Shown here: in pieces, positions 1,232 through 15,600 of the stretch
Layout: the number at the start of each line of letters is the position of its first letter
How positions within the stretch are numbered: position 1 is the stretch's first letter
NCBI GenBank assembly: GCA_946482165.1
Contig: CAMLQS010000008.1
Location: forward strand, 1-37,706
Direction of reading: 5' to 3'
Length of the DNA: 37,706 bases
Origin: an uncultured Verrucomicrobiota bacterium
Lineage (GTDB): Bacteria > Verrucomicrobiota > Verrucomicrobiae > Opitutales > Opitutaceae
The notes under the pieces: model-generated
What the model saw: only the letters and a program-made list of their open reading frames with translations
Databases searched by the model: none
Told to the model about the DNA's origin: nothing
Position numbers and translations under genes: made by a program

Positions 1232-1304
1232 ACGTCCGTAGTTCCAGCGAACTGCCCGGCCTCCAAATCCAAGCGGGCAGGTGCGACTCCTGCCGGACGT
1301 GCCA
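1232..1304 (+). tRNA. tRNA-like gene 1 (degenerate anticodon arm, CCA-like anticodon), altered elbow
   Basis: The acceptor stem is 7 bp (1232-1238 with 1294-1300), with G73 and encoded CCA at 1302-1304. The D arm is GTTC-CAGC-GAAC, with a loop of only four bases. The T arm is GCAGG-TGCGACT-CCTGC (1277-1293). The T loop has G at position 55 instead of U, and the D loop has CAG instead of the usual GG. The anticodon loop would be CTCCAAA (Trp-like CCA, 1261-1267), but its stem pairs poorly, so this unit may be decayed or adopt a different middle arm. A T-rich spacer follows. Confidence 0.7.
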
Positions 1305-1312
1305 TTTCCTTT

Positions 1313-1387
1313 TGCGGGTAGAACCAGTCGTTCCGCCGGGTCTCATAAGCCCAGGCGAGGTCGGTGCGACCCCGACACCCGCACCCA
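1313..1387 (+). tRNA. tRNA-like gene 2, anticodon CAT, altered elbow
   Basis: The acceptor stem is 1313-1319 with 1377-1383, C73, CCA at 1385-1387. The D arm is GAAC-CAGTC-GTTC (1321-1333), a very short loop holding CAG and lacking GG. The anticodon loop is CTCATAA (1342-1348) on a short stem with three consecutive G-C pairs, which gives anticodon CAT (Met, or Ile if C34 were modified). The T arm is GTCGG-TGCGACC-CCGAC, again with G55. Three G-C pairs below the anticodon are also an initiator-tRNA trait, but the rest does not look like an initiator. A run of seven Ts follows the CCA. Confidence 0.75.
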
Positions 1388-1393
1388 TTTTTT

Positions 1394-1470
1394 CGAAGCG
1401 TAGCCTAGCAGTTTCAGGCACTCGGCTTGGGACCGAGACGACGTGAGTGCGACTCTCACCGCTTCGACCA
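1394..1470 (+). tRNA. tRNA-like gene 3, tRNA-Pro(TGG) cloverleaf with altered elbow
   Basis: This unit is a complete cloverleaf. The acceptor is CGAAGCG/CGCTTCG (1394-1400, 1460-1466), A73, CCA 1468-1470. Bases 8-9 are TA. The D arm is GCCT-AGCAGTTTC-AGGC. The anticodon arm is CTCGG-CTTGGGA-CCGAG with anticodon TGG and the G37 typical of proline tRNAs. The T arm is GTGAG-TGCGACT-CTCAC. Apart from the CAG in the D loop and G55 in the T loop, everything is as expected for a tRNA-Pro. Confidence 0.85.
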
Positions 1471-1475
1471 TTTTT

Positions 1476-1550
1476 CCACCGTCCGCCGCGACTGACGAGG
1501 CGAACGCCGAAACCGAACCCATGGTTTCGCGGCGGGCGGTGGTTTCCTTT
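1476..1550 (+). ncRNA. Structured RNA with a 15-bp closing stem and two inner hairpins
   Basis: 1476-1490 pairs with 1528-1542 over 15 positions, one of them a G-U pair. Two hairpins sit inside: GGC-GAAC-GCC (1499-1508) and AAACC/GGTTT (1510-1514 with 1523-1527). The T-rich tail TTTCCTTTT (1543-1551) follows. The plan matches the unit at 1047-1109. It sits between tRNA-like genes 3 and 4. It may be a stable array RNA or a terminator that splits the array into two transcripts. Confidence 0.5.
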
Positions 1551-1554
1551 TCTT

Positions 1555-1631
1555 CAGGTGCGTAGCTCAACCAGGCAGAGCATCGCGTTGTGACCGCGAG
1601 GACCTCGGTGCGACTCCGGGCCACCTGACCA
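1555..1631 (+). tRNA. tRNA-like gene 4, anticodon GTG (His), altered elbow
   Basis: The acceptor is CAGGTG paired with CACCTG (one C-C mismatch at the base of the stem), A73, CCA 1629-1631. The D arm is GCTC-AACCAGGCA-GAGC. The anticodon arm is TCGCG-TTGTGAC-CGCGA with anticodon GTG. The T arm is CTCGG-TGCGACT-CCGGG. Bacterial tRNA-His normally has an extra G at -1 facing C73. Here the end pair is C1-G72 with A73, so the main histidine identity element is missing even though the anticodon is His. The D loop has CAG and the T loop has G55. Confidence 0.8.
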
Positions 1632-1641
1632 ACATTTTTCC

Positions 1642-1729
1642 GCGGACGTGGCGAAATCAGCAAACGCGCCGGCTCGAGATGCCGGTGGGCGAAAGCCCGC
1701 TGTGGGTGCAAGTCCCTCCGTCCGCACCA
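1642..1729 (+). tRNA. tRNA-like gene 5, class II tRNA-Leu(GAG) form with altered elbow
   Basis: The acceptor is GCGGACG/CGTCCGC (1642-1648, 1719-1725), A73, CCA 1727-1729. The D arm is GCG-AAATCAGCAAA-CGC. The anticodon stem CCGGC/GCCGG encloses TCGAGAT, giving anticodon GAG but with C instead of the nearly universal U at position 33. The long variable arm is GGGC-GAAA-GCCC. The T arm is GTGGG-TGCAAGT-CCCTC with one mismatch. The normal tRNA-Leu of this window (15513-15600) has AATCGGCAGA where this unit has AATCAGCAAA, which shows the G-to-A change at the elbow directly. Confidence 0.8.
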
Positions 1730-1736
1730 TTTTCTT

Positions 1737-1823
1737 CGAGGAGTAGCCAAGCAGCCAACGGCAGCGCGCTGTAAACGCGCCGGTCTCCGACCTTCGCTGG
1801 TGCGAACCCAGCCTCCTCGACCA
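1737..1823 (+). tRNA. tRNA-like gene 6, class II tRNA-Tyr(GTA) form with altered elbow
   Basis: The acceptor is CGAGGAG/CTCCTCG, A73, CCA 1821-1823. The D arm is GCC-AAGCAGCCAAC-GGC. The anticodon arm is GCGCG-CTGTAAA-CGCGC with anticodon GTA, as in tyrosine tRNAs, and U33 is present. The variable hairpin is GGTC-TCC-GACC. The T arm is GCTGG-TGCGAAC-CCAGC. All five helices are perfect, so this RNA is under selection to fold. The D loop has CAG for GG and the T loop has G55. Confidence 0.85.
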
Positions 1824-1829
1824 AGTCTT

Positions 1830-1914
1830 CGGCGAGTGGTGAAACAGCATACACGCGAGTCTCAGAAACTCGTGGGCCACGCCCGTGCGGGTGCGAATCC
1901 CGCCTCGCCGACCA
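1830..1914 (+). tRNA. tRNA-like gene 7, class II tRNA-Leu(CAG) form with altered elbow
   Basis: The acceptor is CGGCGAG/CTCGCCG (1830-1836, 1904-1910), A73, CCA 1912-1914. The D arm is GTG-AAACAGCATA-CAC. The anticodon arm is CGAGT-CTCAGAA-ACTCG with anticodon CAG. The variable arm is GGGC-CAC-GCCC. The T arm is GCGGG-TGCGAAT-CCCGC. Every stem is fully paired. The elbow again shows A18 and G55. This is the last tRNA-like unit before the three candidate Y RNAs, six bases away. Confidence 0.85.
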
Positions 1915-1919
1915 ATTTT

Positions 1920-2073
1920 CCGGGCAGTGATGGCGGAGATACTTCGCTCCAAATCGATCCCCGCGCCGCGCCTGCAAGCGTTGGCTGCAATAAACGAGCG
2001 CCGGCTCGACGCGAAAGCGTCGCGCCGGAAGGGCTCCAGGGGAGCTTCGCCTGTTTTCTCCCGGAAACATTTT
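1920..2073 (+). ncRNA. Candidate Y RNA 1 (Y-RNA-like family of three)
   Basis: CCGGG (1920-1924) pairs with CCCGG (2060-2064). C1925 is bulged, and AG (1926-1927) pairs with CT (2058-2059). The block GGCAGT (1923-1928), 11 bases, TACTTC (1940-1945) is shared with the next two RNAs at identical spacing. Inside is a GAAA-capped hairpin (2001-2028, 11 bp with one mismatch) and smaller hairpins, but no clear T or D arm. A short T-run (2070-2073) ends it. A bulged helix formed by the RNA ends is the Ro60-binding feature of known Y RNAs, and the TROVE gene lies just downstream. Confidence 0.6.
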
Positions 2074-2177
2074 CGGAGGCAGTGAGCATGCGGTTACTTC
2101 TTTGACGAACGGCCGAAAGGCCGCGGGTTCAAATCCCGACAACACCGTGCGCGGCGTTCTCTTCCGATCCCCCCTTT
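2074..2177 (+). ncRNA. Candidate Y RNA 2, contains a canonical T arm
   Basis: CGGAGG (2074-2079) pairs with CTTCCG (2161-2166, one G-U). C2080 is bulged, and AG (2081-2082) pairs with CT (2159-2160). GGCAGT (2078-2083) and TACTTC (2095-2100) are 11 bases apart, as in its neighbours. Inside are the hairpin GGCC-GAAA-GGCC (2111-2122), a canonical T arm CGGG-TTCAAAT-CCCG (2124-2138), and then a tetraloop-closed hairpin (2141-2158). The T loop keeps U55, unlike the tRNA-like genes. The pyrimidine-rich tail is ATCCCCCCTTT. It looks like a tRNA fragment at first sight but has no acceptor partner or CCA. Confidence 0.62.
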
Positions 2178-2308
2178 GGCGGGCAGTTAGCCCGTGGATA
2201 CTTCGTGTCGACGGTTCGATCCCGTTCACGCCTCACGGCGTGTAGCTCAGTGGTAGAGCAGAATCGGTTAACTCCGGCTCCGCGGACATCGTCCTCCCGC
2301 CATCTCTT
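2178..2308 (+). ncRNA. Candidate Y RNA 3 with a circularly permuted tRNA module
   Basis: GGCGGG (2178-2183) pairs with CCCGCC (2296-2301). C2184 is bulged, and AG pairs with CT (2294-2295). GGCAGT and TACTTC (2199-2204) are again 11 bases apart. The interior reads T arm GACGG-TTCGATC-CCGTT (2210-2226), acceptor-like hairpin CACGCC-TCAC-GGCGTG (2227-2242), U8-A9 (2243-2244), then D arm GCTC-AGTGGTA-GAGC (2245-2259). The D loop has GG and the T loop has U55, so a normal elbow can form. The two RNA ends take the place of the anticodon stem. The tail ATCTCTTT follows. It ends about 95 bases before the TROVE start. Bacterial YrlA Y RNAs are known to carry tRNA-like modules. Confidence 0.65.
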
Positions 2309-2401
2309 TCGCGCGCCGCGTCATCGCGGCGGCATTTCCCAACCCATCCAGCCGCGCCGCAGTCATCCTCGGCGCGCATTCAACCCAGAAAGGAGGCCGT
2401 C

Positions 2402-3844
2402 ATGGCCAAGTTCAGCATCCTCCCCTCCCTCCGCGCGCTCAGCCGCGCCCAGCCCGACACCGTCAATCTCGCCGGCGGCCGCGCCTACTCGGTGTCGCCT
2501 CGCCTCGAGCTCGTGTCGCTCCTCGTCACCACCTTCCTCGAAGACGAGTTCTACCGCACCGAGGCGCAAACCGTCGCCCGCCTGCGCGAACTCATCGTCC
2601 GCGTCGGCGATCCGCGCTTCGTCGCGCAGGCCGCGCTCTACGCCCGCCACGCCTGCGGCATGCGCTCCGTCAGCCACCTCGTGGCCGGCGAACTCGCCCG
2701 AGCCGTGAAGGGCGAGGCCTGGACCAAGCGTTTCTACGCCGAGGTCGTGCGCCGCCCCGACGACGTGCTGGAGATTCTCGGCTACTACCTCGGCGTCCAC
2801 GGCCGCCCCCTGCCCAACTCCCTCAAGAAGGGCCTCGGCGCCGCGCTCGGCCGCTTCGACGAGCACCAGCTCGCCAAGTATCGCCGCGAGCACTCCGCGT
2901 TCAAGCTGGTCGACGCCGTCAACCTCGTGCGCCCGCGCGCCACGCCCGCGCTCTCGAAGCTCGTGCGCGGCGAACTCGCCCCCGCCGACACGTGGGAAAC
3001 CGCGCTCACCCGCGCCGGCGAGGCGGACTCCGCCGAGTCCGTGGCCGAGGCCAAGGGCGCCGCGTGGAGCCGTCTCCTCGCGGAGAACAAGCTCGGCTAC
3101 CTCGCGCTCCTGCGCAACGTCCGCAACATCCTCGAGCACGCGCCCGAGGCCGTGGACCCGCTCTGCGAGCGCCTGGCCGACGAATACGCGGTCCGCCGCT
3201 CGCTCGTGTTTCCGTTTCAGTTCCTCTCCGCCGTCGACGCGCTCAAGCAGGGCAACCTGCCCGGCGCCGCCCGCGTGCTCGAGGCGCTGAACGTCGCGGT
3301 CGATCATTCGCTGGCCAACGTGCCCCGCTTCGAGGGCCGCACGCTCGTCGCGCTCGACTCCTCGGGCTCGATGGCGGGCCGCCCGCAGCGCATCGGCTCG
3401 CTCTTCGCCGCCATCCTCGTGAAGGCGTGCGAGGCCGACCTGATGGTGTTCAGCGACGACGCGCGTTACCTGACGCTCAACCGCCGCGACAGCACGCTCT
3501 CGGCCGCGGCTTCGATCCCCTTCGTCTCCGGCGGGACCAACTTCAATGCCATCTTCCAGCGCGCGAATCGCGCCTATGATCGCGTGGTGATCCTGTCCGA
3601 CATGCAGGCGTGGATCGGCGACGGCGCACCGGTGGAGTCCTTCGCGGCCTACCAACGTCGCCACCGCATCGAGCCGCGCGTGTTCAGCTGGGACCTGAAG
3701 GGCTGCGGCCCGCTCCAGTTCCCCGCCGACCGCGTCTATGCGCTCGCCGGCTGGAGCGACCGCGCGCTGGAGCTGCTCCCGCGCCTCGACCGCGACCCGC
3801 AGGCCCTCCTGCGCGAGGTCGAGGCCATCCGGCTTGGCGACTGA
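2402..3844 (+). CDS. rsr: TROVE-domain Ro60/Rsr-like RNA-binding protein
   Basis: The 480-residue protein starts at ATG 2402 behind a strong AGGAGG site (2391-2396). Residues about 15-290 match the helical-repeat TROVE module (NLAGGRAYSVSP, LELVSLLVTTFLEDEFYRTE). Residues about 310-480 form a von Willebrand A-like domain with the metal-site motif D319-x-S321-x-S323 (DSSGSM), T379 in SGGTNF and D400 in ILSDMQ. Ro60 proteins form a ring that binds Y RNAs on the outside and 3' ends of faulty RNAs in the central hole. In Deinococcus and Salmonella the rsr gene lies beside Y RNA genes, and in Salmonella also beside rtcBA. Here it sits between three candidate Y RNAs and an rtcB gene. It is slightly shorter than vertebrate Ro60 (538 residues). 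Confidence 0.92.
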   Translation: MAKFSILPSLRALSRAQPDTVNLAGGRAYSVSPRLELVSLLVTTFLEDEFYRTEAQTVARLRELIVRVGDPRFVAQAALYARHACGMRSVSHLVAGELARAVKGEAWTKRFYAEVVRRPDDVLEILGYYLGVHGRPLPNSLKKGLGAALGRFDEHQLAKYRREHSAFKLVDAVNLVRPRATPALSKLVRGELAPADTWETALTRAGEADSAESVAEAKGAAWSRLLAENKLGYLALLRNVRNILEHAPEAVDPLCERLADEYAVRRSLVFPFQFLSAVDALKQGNLPGAARVLEALNVAVDHSLANVPRFEGRTLVALDSSGSMAGRPQRIGSLFAAILVKACEADLMVFSDDARYLTLNRRDSTLSAAASIPFVSGGTNFNAIFQRANRAYDRVVILSDMQAWIGDGAPVESFAAYQRRHRIEPRVFSWDLKGCGPLQFPADRVYALAGWSDRALELLPRLDRDPQALLREVEAIRLGD

Positions 3845-3869
3845 GCGTCGTGCTCGTCGTCCGCGTTGC

Positions 3870-3913
3870 GCGGGGCCGGTTCGTCTTCGGACGGGCCGGC
3901 CCCGCATTCCTTT
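3870..3913 (+). terminator. Terminator after the TROVE gene
   Basis: A perfect 10-bp stem (3870-3879 with 3896-3905) encloses a second short stem capped by a UUCG tetraloop (CGTC-TTCG-GACG, 3882-3893). ATTCCTTTT follows. It lies 25 bases after the TROVE stop and directly before tRNA-like gene 8, so it probably ends the TROVE message. Confidence 0.7.
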
Positions 3914-3914
3914 T

Positions 3915-3989
3915 CTTCCCGTGGTGAAGCCAGAATCACGCGGCCGTGCGAAGGCCGAGCCCCAGGTGCGACTCCTGGCGGGAAGACCA
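3915..3989 (+). tRNA. tRNA-like gene 8, anticodon GCG, altered elbow
   Basis: The acceptor is CTTCCCG/CGGGAAG (3915-3921, 3979-3985), A73, CCA 3987-3989, then five Ts. The D arm is GTGA-AGCCAGAA-TCAC. The anticodon arm is CGGCC-GTGCGAA-GGCCG with anticodon GCG (arginine CGC codon; bacteria normally read this with an ACG/ICG tRNA, so GCG is unusual). The T arm is CCAGG-TGCGACT-CCTGG. All stems are perfect. It shares the CAG D loop and G55 T loop with the seven array units although it lies 2 kb away, beyond the TROVE gene, which links the whole locus together. Confidence 0.82.
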
Positions 3990-4070
3990 TTTTTCTATTC
4001 ACGCAAAAAAGAGCACGCGCGCGCTCCGTCGCGCCTTTCTCCCCGGCTCCCCGTTTTCCCATTTCCGTCC

Positions 4071-4757
4071 ATGACCTCCGCCCTACTCGACCAGCCCATC
4101 GTCCTGTCGCTCAACCGCGCCTGGCAGGTCATCGGCCATCGCTCCGTGAAGCAGGCGCTCGTCGCTCTCAACGGCGGCGAGCCCGGCCAGCCGCCCGCGC
4201 TCGGCCTCGACATCGCCTACGCGCGCGACGCCGAGGGCGCCTGGGATTTCTCCCGCCCGCTTTCCTTCCGCCCCGTGGCGTGGGACGAGTGGGTGACGCT
4301 CCCGGTGCGCGAGTTCGACCTCGTTGTCCACACGCCGCGCCAGGCGATCCGCGTGCCCACCGTCGTCATCGCCACGCGCTTCGAGCGCATGCCGGTGCGC
4401 GTGCCCCGCCTCACCCGCGCCGCGATCTTCGCGCGCGACGGCGGCGTGTGCCAATACACCGGCGAGCGCGTCGGCTGGCGCGGGGGCAACCTCGACCACG
4501 TCGTTCCCCGCGCCCGCGGCGGCCGGGACACCTTTGAGAACCTCGTCTGGGCCAAGCGCGAGGTGAACTCCCGCAAGGCCGACCGCCTCCCCCACGAGGC
4601 CGGTCTGCGGCTCCTCCGCCGCCCGCGCACGCCCGCTCCGGCGCCGGTCGTGGCCTTCGTCCGCGAGCCTCGCCACCCCGATTGGCGCCACTTCCTGCCC
4701 GGCTATACGCCGGATCACCGCAATGACCCTCCTTCGCAAACAGACTTCACGCGATAA
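4071..4757 (+). CDS. HNH endonuclease
   Basis: The 228-residue protein starts at ATG 4071; the frame is open further upstream through the tRNA-like gene, but that part is not protein-like. The C-terminal half carries a classical HNH core: CQYTGERV, then NLDHVVPRARGG with D142-H143, ENLVWAKREVN with N157, and NSRKADRLP. The first ~110 residues (LNRAWQVIG, SVKQALVALNGG) are the N-terminal extension common in this HNH subgroup. HNH nucleases cut DNA or, more rarely, RNA with a single metal ion. Its place between the tRNA-like gene and the overlapping next gene suggests a role in the RNA-repair or defence island. It overlaps the next gene by 35 bases. Confidence 0.85.
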   Translation: MTSALLDQPIVLSLNRAWQVIGHRSVKQALVALNGGEPGQPPALGLDIAYARDAEGAWDFSRPLSFRPVAWDEWVTLPVREFDLVVHTPRQAIRVPTVVIATRFERMPVRVPRLTRAAIFARDGGVCQYTGERVGWRGGNLDHVVPRARGGRDTFENLVWAKREVNSRKADRLPHEAGLRLLRRPRTPAPAPVVAFVREPRHPDWRHFLPGYTPDHRNDPPSQTDFTR

Positions 4758-5385
4758 ACGGCTTCTCGCTCTCGAGCGGGAAGCCAACCGCCTCTACCAA
4801 GCCAAGCGCGACGCGCCCGTCGTTCCCCTCGAACGCCCCTACCAGAAAGGCTGGATCAAAACCTTCGCGCTTACGCCCGAGGTGCTCCGGCGTCCCGACG
4901 CGGAGGTGTTCCGCTCCGTGCTTCTCAAGATCAACACCCGCCTCTGGGCGAGAACGCGGGAGTTCCTGAATCGTCATGGAGATCCGCTCGTGCTGCGCCC
5001 CAGAGTCATCGGTCTCCGCGAGTGGAACGGTCTTCGCTGGCCCGCCAGCCACCGGCGGCTCCTCGCCTTCGGCCACTGGGAGGCGGGCGACACGGGTCAT
5101 ATTCATCTTCGCCCCTGGTTCCGCCGGAGCCACCGTTTCACCGGCTACACCGTGCACCGCCCTTGGTGGCTGCGCGAAGATATCCAGCCCCACCTTATCA
5201 CGCATCAACGCGTCAACTTGCCCGACGTTGAAACGCGCCTCGCCGAAATCGAAGCCGAGCTGGAACACACCCAAGGCCGGCATCGCCTTTCGTGGCTGCA
5301 TGGACGACGGGTCCGCTGGCGCGAGCGAAAGAGCTTCGCCGATCAATCTCTGGAATCCGCCGCCATCGATGCGGACGATACCTGA
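4723..5385 (+). CDS. Unrecognised basic protein of the TROVE/RtcB island
   Basis: I do not recognise this 220-residue protein. It starts at ATG 4723 inside the end of the HNH gene (35-bp overlap, different frame), so the two are probably translated together. It is rich in Arg, His and Trp, has no signal peptide or membrane segment, and contains HIHLRPWFRRSH and VHRPWWLRED in the middle and a short helical, charged stretch (about 165-185: VETRLAEIEAELEH) near the end. The many aromatic and basic residues would suit nucleic-acid binding, but this is inference. The tight coupling to the HNH gene suggests a partner, inhibitor or specificity subunit of the nuclease. Confidence 0.7.
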   Translation: MTLLRKQTSRDKRLLALEREANRLYQAKRDAPVVPLERPYQKGWIKTFALTPEVLRRPDAEVFRSVLLKINTRLWARTREFLNRHGDPLVLRPRVIGLREWNGLRWPASHRRLLAFGHWEAGDTGHIHLRPWFRRSHRFTGYTVHRPWWLREDIQPHLITHQRVNLPDVETRLAEIEAELEHTQGRHRLSWLHGRRVRWRERKSFADQSLESAAIDADDT

Positions 5386-5470
5386 CTCTTTAATCAGGCA
5401 TTCATCGCACCGCGCGCTACACCGGCGCGCATATATTCATTAAGCTAACACTCAACTTACCGTATCCATC

Positions 5471-7015
5471 ATGAACATGCAGATCAAAGCCCGCGACCTC
5501 ATCTCCGCCGGTTGGCACGAGGGCCGCCGCATCGGTCCGGCCCTTCGCCGCGCCCGCGACCTCGAGGATTCCGGCCTCGGCCGCGCCGACGTGCTCGCGC
5601 GCCTCGAGCAGGAATTCCCCAAGCAACTCGCCGTCATCCTCCCGCGCCACGAGCCGGCGCCGCTCGCGCTCGCCGTCGAGGCCGAGACCTCCGAGGAGGC
5701 GATCAACGTCGCCGCCGCCCGCGCGCGCATGAACGAACTTCTCCACTCGCCCGTGATCCATCGCGGCGTCCTCATGCCCGATACCTGCCCGGCCGGCGGC
5801 GGCGCGGCCACCATCCCGGTGGGCGGCGCCATCGCGGTCGAAAACGCCATCATCCCGGGCGCGCACTCGGCGGATATCTGCTGCTCGATGTTCGCCACCT
5901 TCTTCCCGGCCAATCACCCGACGGAGGAGCTGATGGATCATCTGCAAAAGGTGACGCACTTCGGCGCCGGAGGCCGCCCGCGCGGCAACCAGTTCACCTC
6001 GCCCGTGCTCGACGAGCCGGTGTGGGACAATCCCTTCCTCAAGGGCCTGCGCTCCCGCGCCCAGGATTTCCTCGGCACGCAGGGCGACGGCAACCACTTC
6101 GCCTACATCGGTCGTATCCGTTTTACGGATGCGCAGCGCGCCGCGATCGAATCCGCCGGATACGACGATCTAGCGGAATGGATCGTGCGCCGCGACGGCG
6201 AATTCAACGTCCTCGTGACGCACCATGGTTCGCGCGGCCTCGGCGCCGATCTCTATAAGCGCGGCCAGGTCGCCGCGCGCAAGTGGTGCGACGAAAACGC
6301 CAAGGACATCCCCGACGCCGCGTGCTGGCTGCCCGCGGACTCGCCCGAGGGCGCGGACTACTGGAACGCGCTCCAATACATCTCCCGCTGGACGCGGGAA
6401 AACCATGCGCTGATCCATGAGAACGTGCTGCGCCGCATCGGCCAGCGTGCGCTCGTGCAGATCGGAAACGAGCACAACTTCGTGTGGAAGCGCGGCGACG
6501 TGTTCCTCCACGGCAAAGGCGCCACGCCCGCCTGGCGCGACGCAAAGGGCCGTCCGCTGCTCGGGCTCATCCCGCTCAACATGGCGCGCGAGATCCTGCT
6601 CGTGCTCGGCGCGGACAACCCGGACTACCTGTCGTTTTGCCCGCACGGCGCCGGCCGCAATCTTTCGCGCTCGGCGATGCTGCGCCCCTACAAGGACGCC
6701 GACGGCGAGCTCGACCCGGCGCGCGTGAAGGCGGCGCTCGAAGCCACCACGGCGGGCATCGACGTGCGCTGGTATAACGGCGCGCCCGACCTCTCGGAGT
6801 CGCCGCTCGGCTACAAGGACGCCACGAAGGTGAAGGCGCAGATCGCGCGCTTCGGCCTCGCGACCGTGGTCGGCGAGATCGAGCCGCGCGGCTGCATCAT
6901 GGCCGGCGAGGCCGAGGAGCCGCATTGGGCAAAGGCGCGTCGCGAGAAGCGCGCGGCCCACAAGGCGGCCCGTCGCGACGGCGCGGTGGATGTCGTGCAA
7001 ATCGCCGAGGAGTGA
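5471..7015 (+). CDS. rtcB: RtcB-type RNA ligase
   Basis: The 514-residue protein joins RNA ends bearing 2',3'-cyclic or 3'-phosphate to 5'-OH, using GTP and Mn. Expected metal ligands are visible: D135-x-x-C138 in DICCSM, H209 in GDGNHF, H251 in THHGSRGLG, H335 in NEHNF, and the nucleophile that takes up GMP, H392 in CPHGAGRNLSR. The first ~90 residues (AGWHEGRRIGPALRRA) are an extra helical N-terminal region not found in the short E. coli form (408 residues). Two usual glycines are changed (DIGCGM to DICCSM, GGGNHF to GDGNHF), so this is a divergent subgroup. No PrfH or RtcA gene is next to it. A second in-frame ATG lies two codons downstream; no clear ribosome site is seen. Confidence 0.9.
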   Translation: MNMQIKARDLISAGWHEGRRIGPALRRARDLEDSGLGRADVLARLEQEFPKQLAVILPRHEPAPLALAVEAETSEEAINVAAARARMNELLHSPVIHRGVLMPDTCPAGGGAATIPVGGAIAVENAIIPGAHSADICCSMFATFFPANHPTEELMDHLQKVTHFGAGGRPRGNQFTSPVLDEPVWDNPFLKGLRSRAQDFLGTQGDGNHFAYIGRIRFTDAQRAAIESAGYDDLAEWIVRRDGEFNVLVTHHGSRGLGADLYKRGQVAARKWCDENAKDIPDAACWLPADSPEGADYWNALQYISRWTRENHALIHENVLRRIGQRALVQIGNEHNFVWKRGDVFLHGKGATPAWRDAKGRPLLGLIPLNMAREILLVLGADNPDYLSFCPHGAGRNLSRSAMLRPYKDADGELDPARVKAALEATTAGIDVRWYNGAPDLSESPLGYKDATKVKAQIARFGLATVVGEIEPRGCIMAGEAEEPHWAKARREKRAAHKAARRDGAVDVVQIAEE

Positions 7016-7027
7016 GGCGTCGCGTTC

Positions 7028-7065
7028 GCGTCGGGCGCCGTGATCGAGATCGCGGCGCCCGACGC
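7028..7065. terminator. 13-bp perfect hairpin between convergent genes
   Basis: 7028-7040 pairs perfectly with 7053-7065 around a 12-nt loop. It lies between the stop of rtcB (+) and the stop of yjbQ (-). No T-run follows on either strand, so it may slow or end transcription from both sides or protect the 3' ends of the messages. Confidence 0.5.
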
Positions 7066-7068
7066 CGC

Positions 7069-7485
7069 TCACTCGCCCATTACCGTCACGACGATGCGTC
7101 GGGCGTGCGGCGCGGCGCGATGCTCCCAAAGAAACACGCCCTGCCAGGTGCCAAGCAGCAGGCGGCCCCGGCCCACCGGGATCGTTTCGCTCGTGCGAGT
7201 GAGAGCCATCTTGATGTGGCTCGGCATGTCGTCCGGCCCCTCGAGCGTATGAGTGAAATGCGGGTCGTTCTCCGGCACGAGGCGTTCAAGCCAGGCATCC
7301 AGGTCGCGCCGCGCGCTCGGATCGGCGTTTTCCATGATGACGAGCGAAGCGCTCGTGTGTTGGCAAAAGACGTGGGCGACGCCGGTTTTCACCCGCGAGC
7401 GGTCAACGACCGCGCCGAGTTTTTCAGTAAACTCGCGCAAGCCGGCGCCGTGGGCCGGGAGGGTGATCGTTTCCTGATGAACCAT
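7069..7485 (-). CDS. yjbQ: YjbQ/UPF0047 family protein
   Basis: The 138-residue protein matches the YjbQ family over its full length: GVAHVFCQHTSASLVIMEN (His-Thr-Ser core) and, near the end, GTWQGVFLWEHR. YjbQ proteins form small trimers. They are annotated as secondary thiamine-phosphate synthases, but their main cellular role is not settled. The gene is transcribed toward rtcB and ends just after the shared hairpin. Starts at ATG 7483-7485. It is a common housekeeping gene and is probably not part of the RNA island. Confidence 0.88.
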   Translation of the reverse strand: MVHQETITLPAHGAGLREFTEKLGAVVDRSRVKTGVAHVFCQHTSASLVIMENADPSARRDLDAWLERLVPENDPHFTHTLEGPDDMPSHIKMALTRTSETIPVGRGRLLLGTWQGVFLWEHRAAPHARRIVVTVMGE

Positions 7486-7550
7486 GCGCAGAAAAAACGA
7501 AGCGCCGAGCCGGCTTCAGGCAAGCGCATGCACCGCGCCCCACGCGGACG

Positions 7551-10660: not shown

Positions 10661-13600
10661 TCAGTAGCTGACCTTGAGGCGCAGGAACCGGCGTGCGGTG
10701 AGGGAAACGGTGTCGGTGACCGTCACAGGGCCGGCGGTGTTCTGGACCCCGGTGCTGGGGTTGTTCGCCGTGGCTACCGTGGACCACGTCGCGAGGTCGT
10801 TGGAACCTTCCACGGCGTAGGTGAGCGTGCCGTCCGCGATGCGGGTGTAGGTCAGGGTAAGGAAGTTGCCGGATCGCGCGACCGTGAGCGGCGAAGTGCC
10901 GGCGACCATCGGGTTGCCGTTGGTGGCGTATTCGAGGAGATTGCTCAGCCCGTCGCCGTCCGGATCGGCGCTGTCGGCGCCGTTGCCGGAATTGGACGTC
11001 GAGCCGAAGTTTGTCTGGCGCCACGACTCGAGAGCGGTGGTCGTCTGCACCCCGATGGTGACGGAGAGCACGCCGCCGGAAGCGCTGAGCGTGCCGCCGA
11101 AGCCGGAGGGGACCGAGCCGATGACGAAGTTGCTCGTGCTGACCGGCGAGGTGCTGGAGAGGAGCGTGTAGGTGCCGATTCCGAAGCCCGTCAGGCCATC
11201 GAGGTTAATCGTGGTGGTGCCGGCGACGCTGAGGGAGCCGTTCAACTGAATGAGATCCGAGGTGCCGGGAGCGCCGAGCTCCATGTTCAGGGCGGCCCCG
11301 CTGCTCAGCGTGAGCTGACCGGCAATGGTGAAGGTGCCGATGCCGCCATTGCCGGGCGCGAGCGCGCCTCCGGAGGCGACGACGACGTCGCTCGAGAGCG
11401 AACCGACGCCGCCGAGCGAGCCCGCGGAAACCTGGGTGACTCCGGTAAAGGCGCTCGCGCCGTCGAGGGCGAGCGTGCCGGCGCCGTTCTTCACCAGCGT
11501 GTTGCCGCCGGTGTTGCCCGCCGAGGCGATGGCGCCGGCGTAGGTGAGCTTGATGCCCGAATCGACCCAGAGCGTGCCGGTGCCGCCGGTGGAACCCGAG
11601 ATCGGGCCGAGACCGATGCCGCGCTTGGGGTTGAGCACGAAGTCGGGCGTGGTGGTCGTCTGGAGCGTGCCGCCGTTGAGGATGATTTGATTCGGGAACG
11701 CCGAGATCGGCGCCGCGGGAGCCCCGACGGTTCCGGCGGCGCCCGTGCCGGCGAAGGGGCCGATCAAGCCGAGCTTGGCATCGGACGAAACGCGAAGGAT
11801 GCCGCCCTCGATGATGGTTCCGCCGGTGTAGTTGGTGACATCGCCAGTCGCCTCGAAGGAGCCCGCTCCCTTTTTGCGAAGGGCAAACAGGTTTTGATTC
11901 GCGCCGACTTGCTGCTGCGCGGCGGTTCCCACGATCCCGAGGTGGCCGGCGAAGGTGTTATCCACGCCCGTCGGAACATTGAGCGTCAACTCGCTGACGT
12001 TGGTGTTGTTGTTTTGGACCGATCCCGTGCCGGTGTAGTCGGAGCTCAGATACAGACCGGCGATCTCCTGGCGAATGGTGAGGTTGGGCGGGGTCGATGA
12101 GTCGCCCAAAAGCAGCGTGCTGTTGTGGCTGCTTCCGCTGGCGCCCAGGGTGACCACCGTGGTCGCCGGCAGCCGGCCATAACGCGTGAGGTTCAGGGTG
12201 CCGGAACGAATGTTGGTCGCCCCGGTATAGGTGTTCGCCCCGGCCAGCGTCTGGCTGCCATACGTGATCGTGGAGTTGCCGGTGTTAAAGACCGACTTGT
12301 CGACCACCAGATTGAGATTTCCGCCGATCGTGCCGAAGAAGGGCGAATTCGCCGCGCCATCGCCGGTTCCGGCCAGGATGAAATCCACGGGCGCGCCCCC
12401 GGCGCTGTTGGTCACCTCGCCGCCGGACGGATTGAAGGTCAGGGTGCTGATCGTGAAGGCGCCGGCGACATCCGAAAAGCGGTTCTCCGTCGCGGTCCCG
12501 CCGACGCCGTTGAAGTCGAACTTCGCCTCCGGGGCCAGCATGAGCCGCGGCCGGTTGGCCCACGAGGCACCTGTATCAAGTTTAAGGATACCCCGGTTGA
12601 CTCCGAAGATGGTGGTGTTGGAGGAACTGGAAACCGTCGCGGCGAGCGTGGTGTTGCCCGTGCCGTTAAACGCGATGCCCGCGATCGTGGACGATCCGGA
12701 CGCGCCGTTGCCCACGGTTTGCGCGCCCTCGATGCGGATGTCGCCGGGACCGTTGTAGGTTATCCAGCCTTGGTTGGTCCCGGCGGCGCCGGGATTGCTG
12801 ATCGGCGTCCGGATGGTCACTCCGGCGGTATTGAGCGAGTGGACGACGACGTCCTCCGCGTTGGAGTCGGCGGTGCCGGTGATTTGGTCTCCGGCCAGAA
12901 CGATGGGGGACGAGCCGCTGAACAACAGGCCGTTGCTCGGGTTCAGCGAAGTGCCGGCGTTCGTCACCGTCCTGGCCGCGCCGCTGGTGTTCCGAAGCTC
13001 GAGCGTGTTGGTTTGATGCCCGGTGATAGGTTCGTCGGCGGAGAGATTGAGCAGGACGTTGTCCGTCGTCGGCGCCGTGTCGTAATCCGGGCCCGAAGCC
13101 ACGGAGAGCTGCTCGGAAGCCGACAGCAGGCGAACGCCCTTTCCCGCTTCATAGGTGGCGAAACCGGCGCCCGTGCCGGTGTCCGAAGTATCCGCCAAAG
13201 CCCCTCGGATAACGGGGGCCTGGGTCGTGCCCAAGGCGGCGCCGCCCCCCGCGACCGCGTGCAGGAAACCACCTCCGGCGGTGGGCGCCGTGGCGATGTT
13301 GATCGACGCCACGCCGGCTCCCGGCGCGGAGCCGAGACCCGTGCCGCGAAACAGGCTCGTGGATCCGTTTAGGTTGCTGCTTCCGAAGTTACGGGACTTG
13401 ACGGAGCCGAAGTTCAGCGTCGCGGGCTGCGCGGGGTCGGCGACCACCGTCACGATATTCAAACCGCCGCTCTGCGACGCGTGGTTCGCGTCGGCGGATC
13501 CGCTCGCCGGTCCCATCGCGCCAAAAATCGCCGATCCCTCGAAGGTCTGGCTGCGGGGAGCCGCCACGCCGACGCCCGAAAGCTCGAATTCACCGTTCCT

Positions 13601-14971
13601 AAGCTGAATGTGGCCGTTGGCGTTCATCGTGCCTTGGCCCCCCGTGACGACGCCCAGAGCGCCCGTGGTCCCGAGCGAGAGCTTGCCGCCGTTGACCGCG
13701 AGCATGGCTTGGTTCGCCGAGAGCGCGTTGATGTTGTTAACGCCGGAAAGGATCTGCGTGCCGGGGCCCACTTTCACCAGACGGACGGCAGACGCGCTGG
13801 GCAGGCCGCTGGAGGTGTCGCCGATGTTGCCCGCATAGGTGAACGTATCGGAGATCGATCCGCCGGAGCCGACTTGGAACGTCAGGCTGCCTGCGGTGGC
13901 CGGGCCGGAGGTGTTGATGATGGAGCTGTTGCCGCTCGTGCTTTCAAGGCCCCGCACGGAGGATTGGGCGTTCGATTGGGCGAGTTCGAGCCGAGCGGTG
14001 TTGGAGCCGGTGCCGAGGACCAGTTTGCTGTTCATGGGCAGGGCGCTGATGCCCGTGCTCGCCCCGCCGCCGGCAAGCGTTTGAAAAACGCCGCGGGCGA
14101 AGGTGAGGTCGCCGCTGAAACCGGTCCAGTTGAGCCCTATCCCGAAACGGACCGCGCCGACGGCATAGCTGCCGGCCGGGACCGAGTTGAGCGCCACAGG
14201 GGCGAGAACCGTGTTTTGGTTGTCGATCACCAAGCCCTGGTTGCCCACCACGAACAGCTTCCCGTTCGCGTTCGCCGGAGTCGTGGAGCTCGTCTTCGAC
14301 TCGGACAGAGAGAGGCTGTTGCCGCCTGTCACCGTAATGGTGGGCGTGCCGGCTGAAGTGGCCAAGGCGAGGGTCGACACCGTGCCGCCGTTTCGCGCCG
14401 TCGCGAGGAGACTCACGCCGCCGGCCGTGGTGTCCACGGCGAGAGAACCCAGCGTGGTGTCGCGATCAAACACGATGGCTGGCGTGCCCGCGCTCGTGGC
14501 CACGACGGCCTGGGCGTCGATTCCGTCGGGCACGATGCCGCCGACCCAATTTCCCGCGGTATACCAGCTGGAAATTTTGGGGACCAAAACCTCTCCGGAG
14601 GAACCGGTGATGTTTCCGACGCCACCCGGATGCTGAGCGAAGCGCACGCTGGTGCTCGGCGTGGCGCCTACGCCGACGACATAATAGTAGGTATCCGTGC
14701 TGGTGAGACCGGCTCCTGACGTCGTGCCGACGCGCACCGCATCGCCCTCGATCAGGGCGGACGAAGCGGTCCAGAGGTTGCCGTCGTTGGTAAGCGTCAC
14801 GGTCACGCCCTGATCGGCCGGGTTGGCCTGCCAAGTCCCGTTTGCCGCCCTCAAGTCAGGCAGCGAACCAAGGGCCAGCATGGCGGCGGCCAGCGCGGTG
14901 GTGGCGGCCGAGAGGGATTTACGGGAGGCGATGCCGGAGCGGGAATGCCGATGAATAGGGGCGTTATTCAT
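10661..14971 (-). CDS. Giant secreted protein with autotransporter-associated beta-strand repeats
   Basis: The start is placed at ATG 14971 because the following residues form a signal peptide: a basic segment (HRHSRSGIASRKS), a hydrophobic core (TTALAAAMLALGSLPDL) and a likely cut after LRA. That gives 1436 residues. The long body is Gly/Ala/Ser/Thr/Asn-rich with repeated patterns such as GAGTLALDGASAFTG, GGTIIEGGILRVSSD and TYTGATNIRSGTLNL. These are autotransporter-associated beta-strand repeats that fold into a parallel beta-helix. Near the end come DPDGDGLSNLLEYA (calcium-type loop) and a beta-sandwich-like tail (LTYAVEGSNDLATWSTV). No outer-membrane barrel is present, so it is not a self-exporting autotransporter. 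Such proteins are abundant in Verrucomicrobiota and are probably displayed on the surface. Four in-frame upstream codons groups to 15043 look non-coding. Confidence 0.85.
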   Translation of the reverse strand: MNNAPIHRHSRSGIASRKSLSAATTALAAAMLALGSLPDLRAANGTWQANPADQGVTVTLTNDGNLWTASSALIEGDAVRVGTTSGAGLTSTDTYYYVVGVGATPSTSVRFAQHPGGVGNITGSSGEVLVPKISSWYTAGNWVGGIVPDGIDAQAVVATSAGTPAIVFDRDTTLGSLAVDTTAGGVSLLATARNGGTVSTLALATSAGTPTITVTGGNSLSLSESKTSSTTPANANGKLFVVGNQGLVIDNQNTVLAPVALNSVPAGSYAVGAVRFGIGLNWTGFSGDLTFARGVFQTLAGGGASTGISALPMNSKLVLGTGSNTARLELAQSNAQSSVRGLESTSGNSSIINTSGPATAGSLTFQVGSGGSISDTFTYAGNIGDTSSGLPSASAVRLVKVGPGTQILSGVNNINALSANQAMLAVNGGKLSLGTTGALGVVTGGQGTMNANGHIQLRNGEFELSGVGVAAPRSQTFEGSAIFGAMGPASGSADANHASQSGGLNIVTVVADPAQPATLNFGSVKSRNFGSSNLNGSTSLFRGTGLGSAPGAGVASINIATAPTAGGGFLHAVAGGGAALGTTQAPVIRGALADTSDTGTGAGFATYEAGKGVRLLSASEQLSVASGPDYDTAPTTDNVLLNLSADEPITGHQTNTLELRNTSGAARTVTNAGTSLNPSNGLLFSGSSPIVLAGDQITGTADSNAEDVVVHSLNTAGVTIRTPISNPGAAGTNQGWITYNGPGDIRIEGAQTVGNGASGSSTIAGIAFNGTGNTTLAATVSSSSNTTIFGVNRGILKLDTGASWANRPRLMLAPEAKFDFNGVGGTATENRFSDVAGAFTISTLTFNPSGGEVTNSAGGAPVDFILAGTGDGAANSPFFGTIGGNLNLVVDKSVFNTGNSTITYGSQTLAGANTYTGATNIRSGTLNLTRYGRLPATTVVTLGASGSSHNSTLLLGDSSTPPNLTIRQEIAGLYLSSDYTGTGSVQNNNTNVSELTLNVPTGVDNTFAGHLGIVGTAAQQQVGANQNLFALRKKGAGSFEATGDVTNYTGGTIIEGGILRVSSDAKLGLIGPFAGTGAAGTVGAPAAPISAFPNQIILNGGTLQTTTTPDFVLNPKRGIGLGPISGSTGGTGTLWVDSGIKLTYAGAIASAGNTGGNTLVKNGAGTLALDGASAFTGVTQVSAGSLGGVGSLSSDVVVASGGALAPGNGGIGTFTIAGQLTLSSGAALNMELGAPGTSDLIQLNGSLSVAGTTTINLDGLTGFGIGTYTLLSSTSPVSTSNFVIGSVPSGFGGTLSASGGVLSVTIGVQTTTALESWRQTNFGSTSNSGNGADSADPDGDGLSNLLEYATNGNPMVAGTSPLTVARSGNFLTLTYTRIADGTLTYAVEGSNDLATWSTVATANNPSTGVQNTAGPVTVTDTVSLTARRFLRLKVSY

Positions 14972-15512
14972 AATTTTAAAAAAAGGATGTGGAGACCGGA
15001 TGCTTCGAAGCGCGAAGTTCGCCCGGCGACTGGCTGCCGGCATGGCAAAGCCAAGAACACCCGGCGCGGAATTGGCGGGTATCGGCCAAGGAGGCTTCGT
15101 CTATCGGGCAAAACGCCGGTCGCTGCGGAGCGGCGGGGAAAATCTCGTCGGAGAGGAAAAGAGGATGAAAGATGAAGCCTGAACCACGGCGGACCGGGGA
15201 GGCTCAACTGGGGAAAGATTAAAACCGTTGAGGGAGCAATTACAGCCGAGACGGAGGGGGGACGGCTGTGTTTTCAGAGCTAAATTAGTTCGCCGTATGG
15301 TCAATAGCGTTGCCACTGCTTGCGACGGGCGTTGGCCGCCGGCTCATAGGAGAGGAGCTTAGAATCCAGAACAAAGTTTCGATAAAGTCGGAAGGCTGGT
15401 GGAAATGCTAATCAGAGCTCCGCCGCCAAGCCCCCTTTCCCGCTCTATAACCTGACCCGCCTCGGATAAACTTCCAGGGTGGTCGTGGATTAAACCCGTG
15501 CTTTCTAAGTAT
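14972..15512. other. Upstream region of the surface protein gene, no gene seen
   Basis: About 540 bases. It probably holds the promoter and leader of the surface protein gene on the minus strand. The part 15230-15320 is more AT-rich than the rest and contains TTGACC on the minus strand (15303-15298), but no good -10 at the right distance. No ribosome site is visible before ATG 14971. Confidence 0.45.
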
Positions 15513-15600
15513 TGGTGCCCGGGGTGGGGGTCGAACCCACACGCCTTTAGAGGGCGACGGATTTTGAGTCCGTTGCGTCTGCCGATTCCGCCACCCGGGC
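15513..15600 (-). tRNA. tRNA-Leu(CAA), normal
   Basis: On the minus strand the acceptor is GCCCGGG/CCCGGGC, A73 and encoded CCA (15515-15513). The D loop contains GG (AATCGGCAGA). The anticodon arm is ACGGA-CTCAAAA-TCCGT with anticodon CAA. A long variable arm follows, and the T arm has GGGTTCGACCC with normal U54-U55-C56. This is an ordinary class II leucine tRNA and serves as an internal control for the altered tRNA-like genes at 1232-1914 and 3915-3989. Confidence 0.97.

Follow-up and report, generated by a model that had tools for sequence, protein, structure and literature searches.

Long tRNA arrays of Verrucomicrobiota with an A18-G55 elbow in place of G18-U55

Dense, redundant arrays of transfer RNA (tRNA) genes that include an HNH endonuclease gene, also called "L-arrays", are already known; papers are cited here by PubMed Central (PMC) number. 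The trn operon of Anabaena PCC 7120 holds 26 tRNA genes and is silent until translation-targeting antibiotics induce it; in a mutant of the repressor trcR the tRNA operon, rtcB, and HNH genes are all raised, and translational stress lifts the repression (PMC10272220). Mycobacterial array units come with one HNH gene; where they depart from the chromosomal set, it is typically in the D, anticodon, and variable arms (PMC12803027, PMC5966550). The locus considered here lies in a stretch of 37,706 nucleotides from an uncultured Opitutaceae bacterium (contig CAMLQS010000008.1; "the window" means this whole stretch), in which eight tRNA-like genes stand on the plus strand at 1232-3989, seven of them 5' of a TROVE gene and one 3' of it. 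In all eight, as the first-pass annotation had read them, the D loop carries CAG and the T loop TGC, which in tRNA numbering is A18-G19 with G55-C56; G18 with pseudouridine 55 is taken as near-universal in tRNAs (PMC7912444, PMC4810234). Because dense, redundant arrays with an HNH gene had been described before, the arrays of Verrucomicrobiota are filed as long tRNA arrays of the Anabaena trn kind, in which the elbow is of a new type.

The likeness to the Anabaena operon lies in a redundant tRNA array and in rtcB and HNH genes, which in the trcR mutant are raised alongside it (PMC10272220). The Verrucomicrobiota arrays differ in the A18/G55 elbow and in having RtcB, in part of the cases, in the same locus, the elbow being compared through the array with an HNH relative on the Nostoc MS1 plasmid, where 17 of 20 units have TTC and one, a lone Glu unit (L266, 9577-9654; L and G numbers are our handles for loci and genomes), has TGC with AG in the D loop. 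Mycobacterial, plasmid, and phage array units, compared by description, are alike in the HNH gene and in divergence from the main set; a search of the text of PMC12803027 on mycobacterial array units gave neither "T-loop" nor "RtcB". No description of an A18/G55 elbow in tRNA arrays was found among the listed titles and abstract openings of openly licensed PMC papers.

RNA-repair operons for Rsr, Y RNA, and RtcBA are alike in placing a TROVE protein near RtcB and in having a tRNA-like RNA domain, YrlA being a Y RNA with such a domain (PMC7790460). The Verrucomicrobiota arrays are unlike them in consisting of whole cloverleaf genes with CCA and in that TROVE is dispensable. The Y RNA fold is without acceptor stem and CCA, so that the array units, cloverleafs with both and in some arrays without TROVE, fall outside Y RNA and YrlA; they also depart from the canonical elongator tRNA, with its G18-G19 and U54-U55-C56, G55 being found in 333 of 417 units. 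In staphylococci, a non-proteinogenic tRNA-Gly used in cell-wall synthesis has G55 (GUGC) and has lost both G18 and G19. The parallel that was first drawn with these glycine tRNAs does not reach beyond the G at position 55: the Verrucomicrobiota units cover nearly all amino acids, mostly keep G19 with C56, and have an A18 that covaries with G55.

In the window, the T-arm pattern GGTGCRANYCC(N11)CCA, scanned on both strands, has seven matches, every one within an array unit, and is absent from the rest of the window on either strand; the eighth unit, Pro, carries GAGTGC and falls outside the pattern. The D loop of the His unit, AACCAGGCA, permits both an AG and a GG reading. ARAGORN calls six of the eight units, the covariance model R1 adds the Trp-like unit (1232-1304), and the Met unit is recognized by eye only, its bounds (1313-1387) being a reading of the acceptor stem by eye; five of the eight are above the cut-off of the Rfam tRNA model. 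The first-pass annotation called the helices perfect in most units, which holds for most and fails for the Trp unit, with its oversized anticodon loop, and for the short D loops (4-5 nucleotides) of Trp and Met; it also pointed to a tRNA-Leu of the window (15513-15600) as normal, and that gene does have GG and TTC. Decayed tRNA-like pieces with TTC lie at 1920-2300, between the last upstream unit and the TROVE gene, as if the array were losing canonical units.

The elbow recurs in other loci, more often than chance would give. Alignment scans for TROVE covered the best 80 of 123 loci from genome contigs and the best 80 of 252 from viral contigs; the Verrucomicrobiota set comprises 45 TROVE loci, the window included, in which ARAGORN units on the TROVE strand were counted. 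Its 417 units divide into 333 with G55, 82 with U55-C56, and 2 others, and at least one G55 unit is present in 38 of the 45 loci; in the remaining seven, L007, L008, L011, L012, and L033 have no ARAGORN call, and L013 and L075 have one U55 unit each. All amino acids are represented across the loci, Ser only once in the 333 units, and an array holds up to 25 units within about 3.5 kb (L259). Main tRNA sets, defined as the RF00005 matches listed outside the arrays, were taken from two genomes, G007 (of L003) and G003 (of L017), with one RF00005 match (L199) dropped for want of an ARAGORN call. The 88 main tRNAs comprise 87 with U55-C56 and one with U55-U56, and none with G55, which rejects a change common to all tRNAs of these genomes; in both, the arrays are redundant with dispersed tRNA sets. 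The proposal that these RNAs form a separate class, with A18/G55 missing from the main sets, is thereby upheld: the elbow is found in other TROVE loci and in none of the 88 main tRNAs of the two genomes.

Positions 18 and 55 change together. ARAGORN skips odd units and misplaces some stems, so D loops were classed by whether their scored part contains AG or GG, and numbering was not forced. Read in this way, the G55-C56 units (n = 323) have AG without GG in 296, AG and GG in 10, and neither in 17. Normal elbows do occur in related loci, a case that the first-pass annotation had set against its own proposal should they prove random, and it holds only in part: the 82 U55-C56 units have GG in 79 (15 of these also AG) and AG without GG in none. 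Independent variation of 18 and 55 is rejected by this pattern (296/323 versus 79/82); Fisher's exact test for the coupling gives 1.4e-71, a value overstated in that the units share ancestry. Of the parsed tRNAs that have C56, 373 of the 402 with G55 hold the 18-19 dinucleotide expected for them, as do 492 of 512 with U55 and 9 of 9 with C55. The next contact behaves likewise: C56 is changed in 24 units, and in 20 of them (two of which, L040 and L066, also contain the canonical dinucleotide) the D loop offers a dinucleotide with which both contacts pair again, whereas 300 shuffles gave 10.8 such units on average and never more than 15. Within the T loop, positions 54 and 58 covary (T-A in 274, A-T in 29, C-A in 19, and others in 11 of the 333 units). 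The paired change at 18/55, the re-pairing at 19/56, and the covariation at 54/58 together mean that the array elbow has been rebuilt and preserved rather than lost.

Units that break the 18/55 rule include one G55 unit with GG only (L265) and, in L084, one TGC unit without AG and one TTC unit (Met, 6935) with AG without GG. L084, a viral contig, carries 27 array tRNAs at 4035-7517, with elbows of three types in one array: TTC with GG; TGC, in six units, five of them with AG; and TCC, in seven units, all with GG and thus G18-C55. That the 18/55 contact is replaced on both sides for nearly all amino acids means that this contact can be rewritten; the arrays amount to a natural experiment on the purpose of position 55, be it folding, modification, or recognition by enemies, and with the swap the long tRNA arrays, which are poorly understood, acquire a signature that can be tested.

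The swap is unevenly spread. In the Opitutaceae-like group (17 loci, window included) there are 122 G55 and 4 U55 units, and in the other 28 loci 211 and 78, the split being our own, made by TROVE identity and by the titles of the records. The carriers include two named isolates, Chthoniobacter flavus (L072) and Brevifollis gellanilyticus (L038). Of the units in TROVE-linked arrays of other phyla, 195 of 198 are U55-C56, as are 140 of 162 in viral TROVE loci. A whole-genome survey used the T-arm pattern, which demands an encoded CCA and exact GGTGC and thus undercounts; clusters of at least three matches were found in at least nine of 288 genomes in the phylum of G003 (with places not listed for G222 and G247, and the G003 cluster known from L017); 198 genomes from the phylum to which L045 belongs (by its title, Saprospiraceae) and 199 from that of L066 (by its title, Acidobacteria) gave none. 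The elbow swap is therefore a feature of Verrucomicrobiota among the phyla sampled and not a property of TROVE/RtcB loci. The expectation that it would recur in other TROVE/RtcB loci holds for the TROVE loci of Verrucomicrobiota and goes no further, neither TROVE nor RtcB being constant and other phyla having normal elbows.

Among the neighbors of the arrays, HNH turns up most often, with RtcB and TROVE as frequent partners. Of the 44 Verrucomicrobiota TROVE loci that were fetched, 34 have HNH and 18 have RtcB; of the 33 among them with at least three G55 units, 29 have HNH and 16 RtcB, which rejects RtcB as a constant partner. Some contigs end early, but in six loci (L020, L021, L026, L031, L035, and L076) HNH is present and about 10 kb of flank gives no RtcB match, and HNH is ranked first accordingly. 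The Pfam TROVE model is too weak for this clade in whole genomes, and alignment A1 was used there, with at most five candidates scored per genome; of the nine cluster genomes, three have this TROVE at E < 1e-200, and in one more, G224, the match is weak, partial, and on a different contig. Six TROVE-less array stretches have RtcB in four and HNH in five, and AG without GG is found in 54 of the 61 G55-C56 units there; L264 has neither HNH nor RtcB, and L265, which starts at a contig end, has HNH and no RtcB. With other phyla normal and arrays found without TROVE and without RtcB, the swap is rejected as a mark of TROVE or RtcB loci generally. HNH relatives on plasmids and phages adjoin tRNA arrays in two of six fetched stretches; those with HNH matches on Tsukamurella, Sinorhizobium, and Paracoccus replicons and on Rhizobium phage RHph_TM21B have 0 or 1 tRNA in the stretch.

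The array genes are maintained. Stems of same-anticodon units are 70-79% identical across loci (17 loci, 182 units), and 4249 comparisons of acceptor-stem pairs include 1069 compensated and 128 broken ones, an excess from which, with the stem identity, maintenance follows; several Opitutaceae-like loci keep one gene order, Glu-Gly-Lys ... Pro-His ... Leu-Arg. Many array units are likely to be charged, since their acceptor ends keep part of the identity read by synthetases. With units lacking a clean acceptor dropped (268 of the 333 G55 units kept for the label-shuffle test, 313 for the scored-identity test), acceptor pairs 1-3 match main tRNAs for the same amino acid better than all 1000 label shuffles in both locus groups, and the match at residue 73 is reached by at most 4 of 1000. 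The isotype-specific signal lies in the acceptor end, with some in the T stem, and arrays of other phyla have the same signal at the acceptor end. G3-U70, the identity mark of alanine (PMC7566577), is present in all 4 Ala units that were scored (in 5 of 5 among those listed) and in 1 of 309 others; Asn units have U1-A72 in 14 of 14, Trp units A1-U72 in 6 of 6, and Pro units C1-G72 in 9 of 10. As observations apart, three His units (among L026, L027, L030, and other loci) combine G at -1 with C73; the acceptor stems of seven Opitutaceae-like His units have a mismatch at 7/66; and Arg units have GCG in 20 of 36 and ACG in 2, GCG being absent from both main sets, which have ACG.

The explanation favored, though tentatively, is that the A18-G55 arrays are a charged back-up tRNA set that may escape an agent reading U55 or pseudouridine 55. 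The array genes would be silent until tRNA damage or translation stress, as in the related Anabaena operon; their products would be charged and used in translation; RtcB, where present, may repair cut tRNAs alongside; and the selective cause of the swap, the least secure step, might be a nuclease, toxin, or modifying enzyme acting at the T loop of normal tRNAs. U55 is missing and the consensus of TruB substrates, GUUYRANYC (PMC7912444), is not matched, so the array tRNAs cannot carry pseudouridine 55, and the earlier idea that they are hidden from TruB follows. Hiding from EF-Tu or the ribosome, put forward along with it as a possibility, finds no support in the acceptor-end isotype signal, the coverage of nearly all amino acids, or G19-C56, the face read by the ribosome, RNase P, and others (PMC4810234), which is mostly kept. 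Features read in translation are thus kept while U55 is lost, which fits escape from an agent that reads position 55. A bolder form, in which ordinary synthetases would charge a second set with its own A18-G55 elbow code, immune to a putative agent cutting or marking U55, so that translation could survive an attack removing every normal tRNA, is doubtful.

Several results weigh against escape as the explanation. In other phyla, similar arrays have normal elbows, and a back-up set can therefore do without the swap; canonical units number 82 among the 417, and an agent cutting all U55 tRNAs would not spare them; the analysis turned up no agent reading U55; and RtcB was not found in 17 of the 33 array loci (some contigs end early), the six well-flanked loci named above among them. 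Identity marks are lost in part: C73 is present in only 4 of 21 His units and missing in 17, Gly units have A73 in 12 of 14 (U73 in 5 of 6 in the main set), residue 73 is variable in Met and Thr units, the first pair, mostly G-C in the main sets, is reversed to C-G in 15 of 18 scored Ile units, in 21 of 35 for Arg, and in 9 of 16 for Glu, and Gln units have U1-A72 in only 8 of 28. Position 33 is C in 41 of the 333 G55 units (U33 in 88 of 88 in the main set; C33 in 10 of 182 units in arrays of other phyla), and the anticodon stems have no isotype signal in common with the main set. Escape in its simple form is weakened by C33, by the loss of identity marks, by the canonical units, and by the arrays that are normal in other phyla.

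Some of these same features would suit sacrificial decoys, which would offer normal anticodon loops to anticodon nucleases, be cut in place of the main tRNAs, and be resealed by RtcB, their elbow barring them from translation: U33 is kept in 292 of 333 units and a purine at 37 in 331 of 333, RtcB is in the locus in part of the cases, and C33, the residue-73 identity mostly gone in His and Gly units, and the lack of a long variable arm in 52 of 52 Leu units of non-Opitutaceae loci (13 of 15 in other phyla; the nine main Leu tRNAs have the arm) count in their favor. Such decoys are nevertheless unlikely, for acceptor-end identity beyond chance would be superfluous in them, G19-C56 is mostly kept, and the anticodon stems are no mimic of the host's, an idea rejected by the absence of isotype signal and by an identity of 0.398 between array and main set, no better than between isotypes, against 0.75 between arrays. 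That the ribosome-facing anticodon stem is unlike the main set, with C33 in part, would also agree with charged tRNAs that donate their amino acids elsewhere than on the ribosome, like the staphylococcal cell-wall glycine tRNAs with their G55, and charging identity is partly kept; coverage of nearly all amino acids, the mostly kept G19-C56, and the lack of an aminoacyl transferase in a Pfam scan of eight genes of the window make this very unlikely.

The swap might also serve a modification-free elbow, by which new tRNAs would work at once without TruB and no attacker need be supposed. U55 is gone in all 333 G55 units, and the Arg anticodons, mostly GCG where the main sets have ACG, would mostly dispense with TadA, which edits the ACG anticodon of tRNA-Arg; even so, tRNAs with unmodified U55 already fold, and in other phyla the arrays retain U55 and, for most Arg units (9 of 15), ACG, so that this too is distinctly unlikely. 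That the swap is an accident of history without function, which gene conversion or duplication carried through each array, has only a slight chance. The arrays carry HNH genes, which are implicated in change of the phage tRNA repertoire (PMC5966550), and the swap is confined to one phylum among those sampled; but homogenization of the T arm within arrays is rejected by near-equal identities of different isotypes within and between loci (T stems 0.627 and 0.619, T loops 0.728 and 0.727), several T-loop types share G55, and 19/56 is re-paired.

Coordinates of the array units and of the other features of the window are collected in Table 1.

Table 1. Features of the window, with the model or reading on which each rests.
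Feature	Position	Strand	Called by or match
Array unit, Trp-like (CCA anticodon), G55, degenerate anticodon arm	1232..1304	+	R1
Array unit, Met (CAU), G55, 5-nucleotide D loop CAGTC, C73	1313..1387	+	by eye; neither ARAGORN nor R1 call
Array unit, Pro (UGG), A18-G19 / G55-C56	1394..1470	+	ARAGORN, R1
Array unit, His (GUG), G55, D loop AACCAGGCA	1555..1631	+	ARAGORN, R1
Array unit, Leu (GAG), G55	1642..1729	+	ARAGORN, R1
Array unit, Tyr (GUA), G55	1737..1823	+	ARAGORN, R1
Array unit, Leu (CAG), G55	1830..1914	+	ARAGORN, R1
Decayed tRNA-like pieces, two with TTC T loops (~2127, ~2214)	1920..2300	+	no ARAGORN, Rfam, or R1 call
TROVE/vWA protein, 480 amino acids	2402..3844	+	PF05731 2e-19
Array unit, Arg (GCG), G55, 3' of TROVE gene	3915..3989	+	ARAGORN, R1
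HNH endonuclease, tRNA-array type	4071..4757	+	PF13395 6.8e-07
Conserved protein without family, between HNH and RtcB	4723..5385	+	relatives in other loci
RtcB-family RNA ligase, 514 amino acids	5471..7015	+	PF01139 7.9e-36
Ordinary tRNA-Leu (CAA), GG and TTC, comparison only	15513..15600	-	ARAGORN

PADLOC gives no match for the window. In alignment, the RtcB-family protein has the Cys and His motifs of RtcB. The protein at 4723-5385 has no family match in Pfam, NCBIfam, or PADLOC; it is 29-53% conserved in related loci, where it also stands mostly between HNH and RtcB. Upstream of the array, at 852-1032, lies an imperfect inverted repeat of 33 base pairs (88%) with arms 115 nucleotides apart, and farther downstream an open reading frame on the minus strand (10661-15043, 1460 amino acids) has PATR repeats of the autotransporter type.

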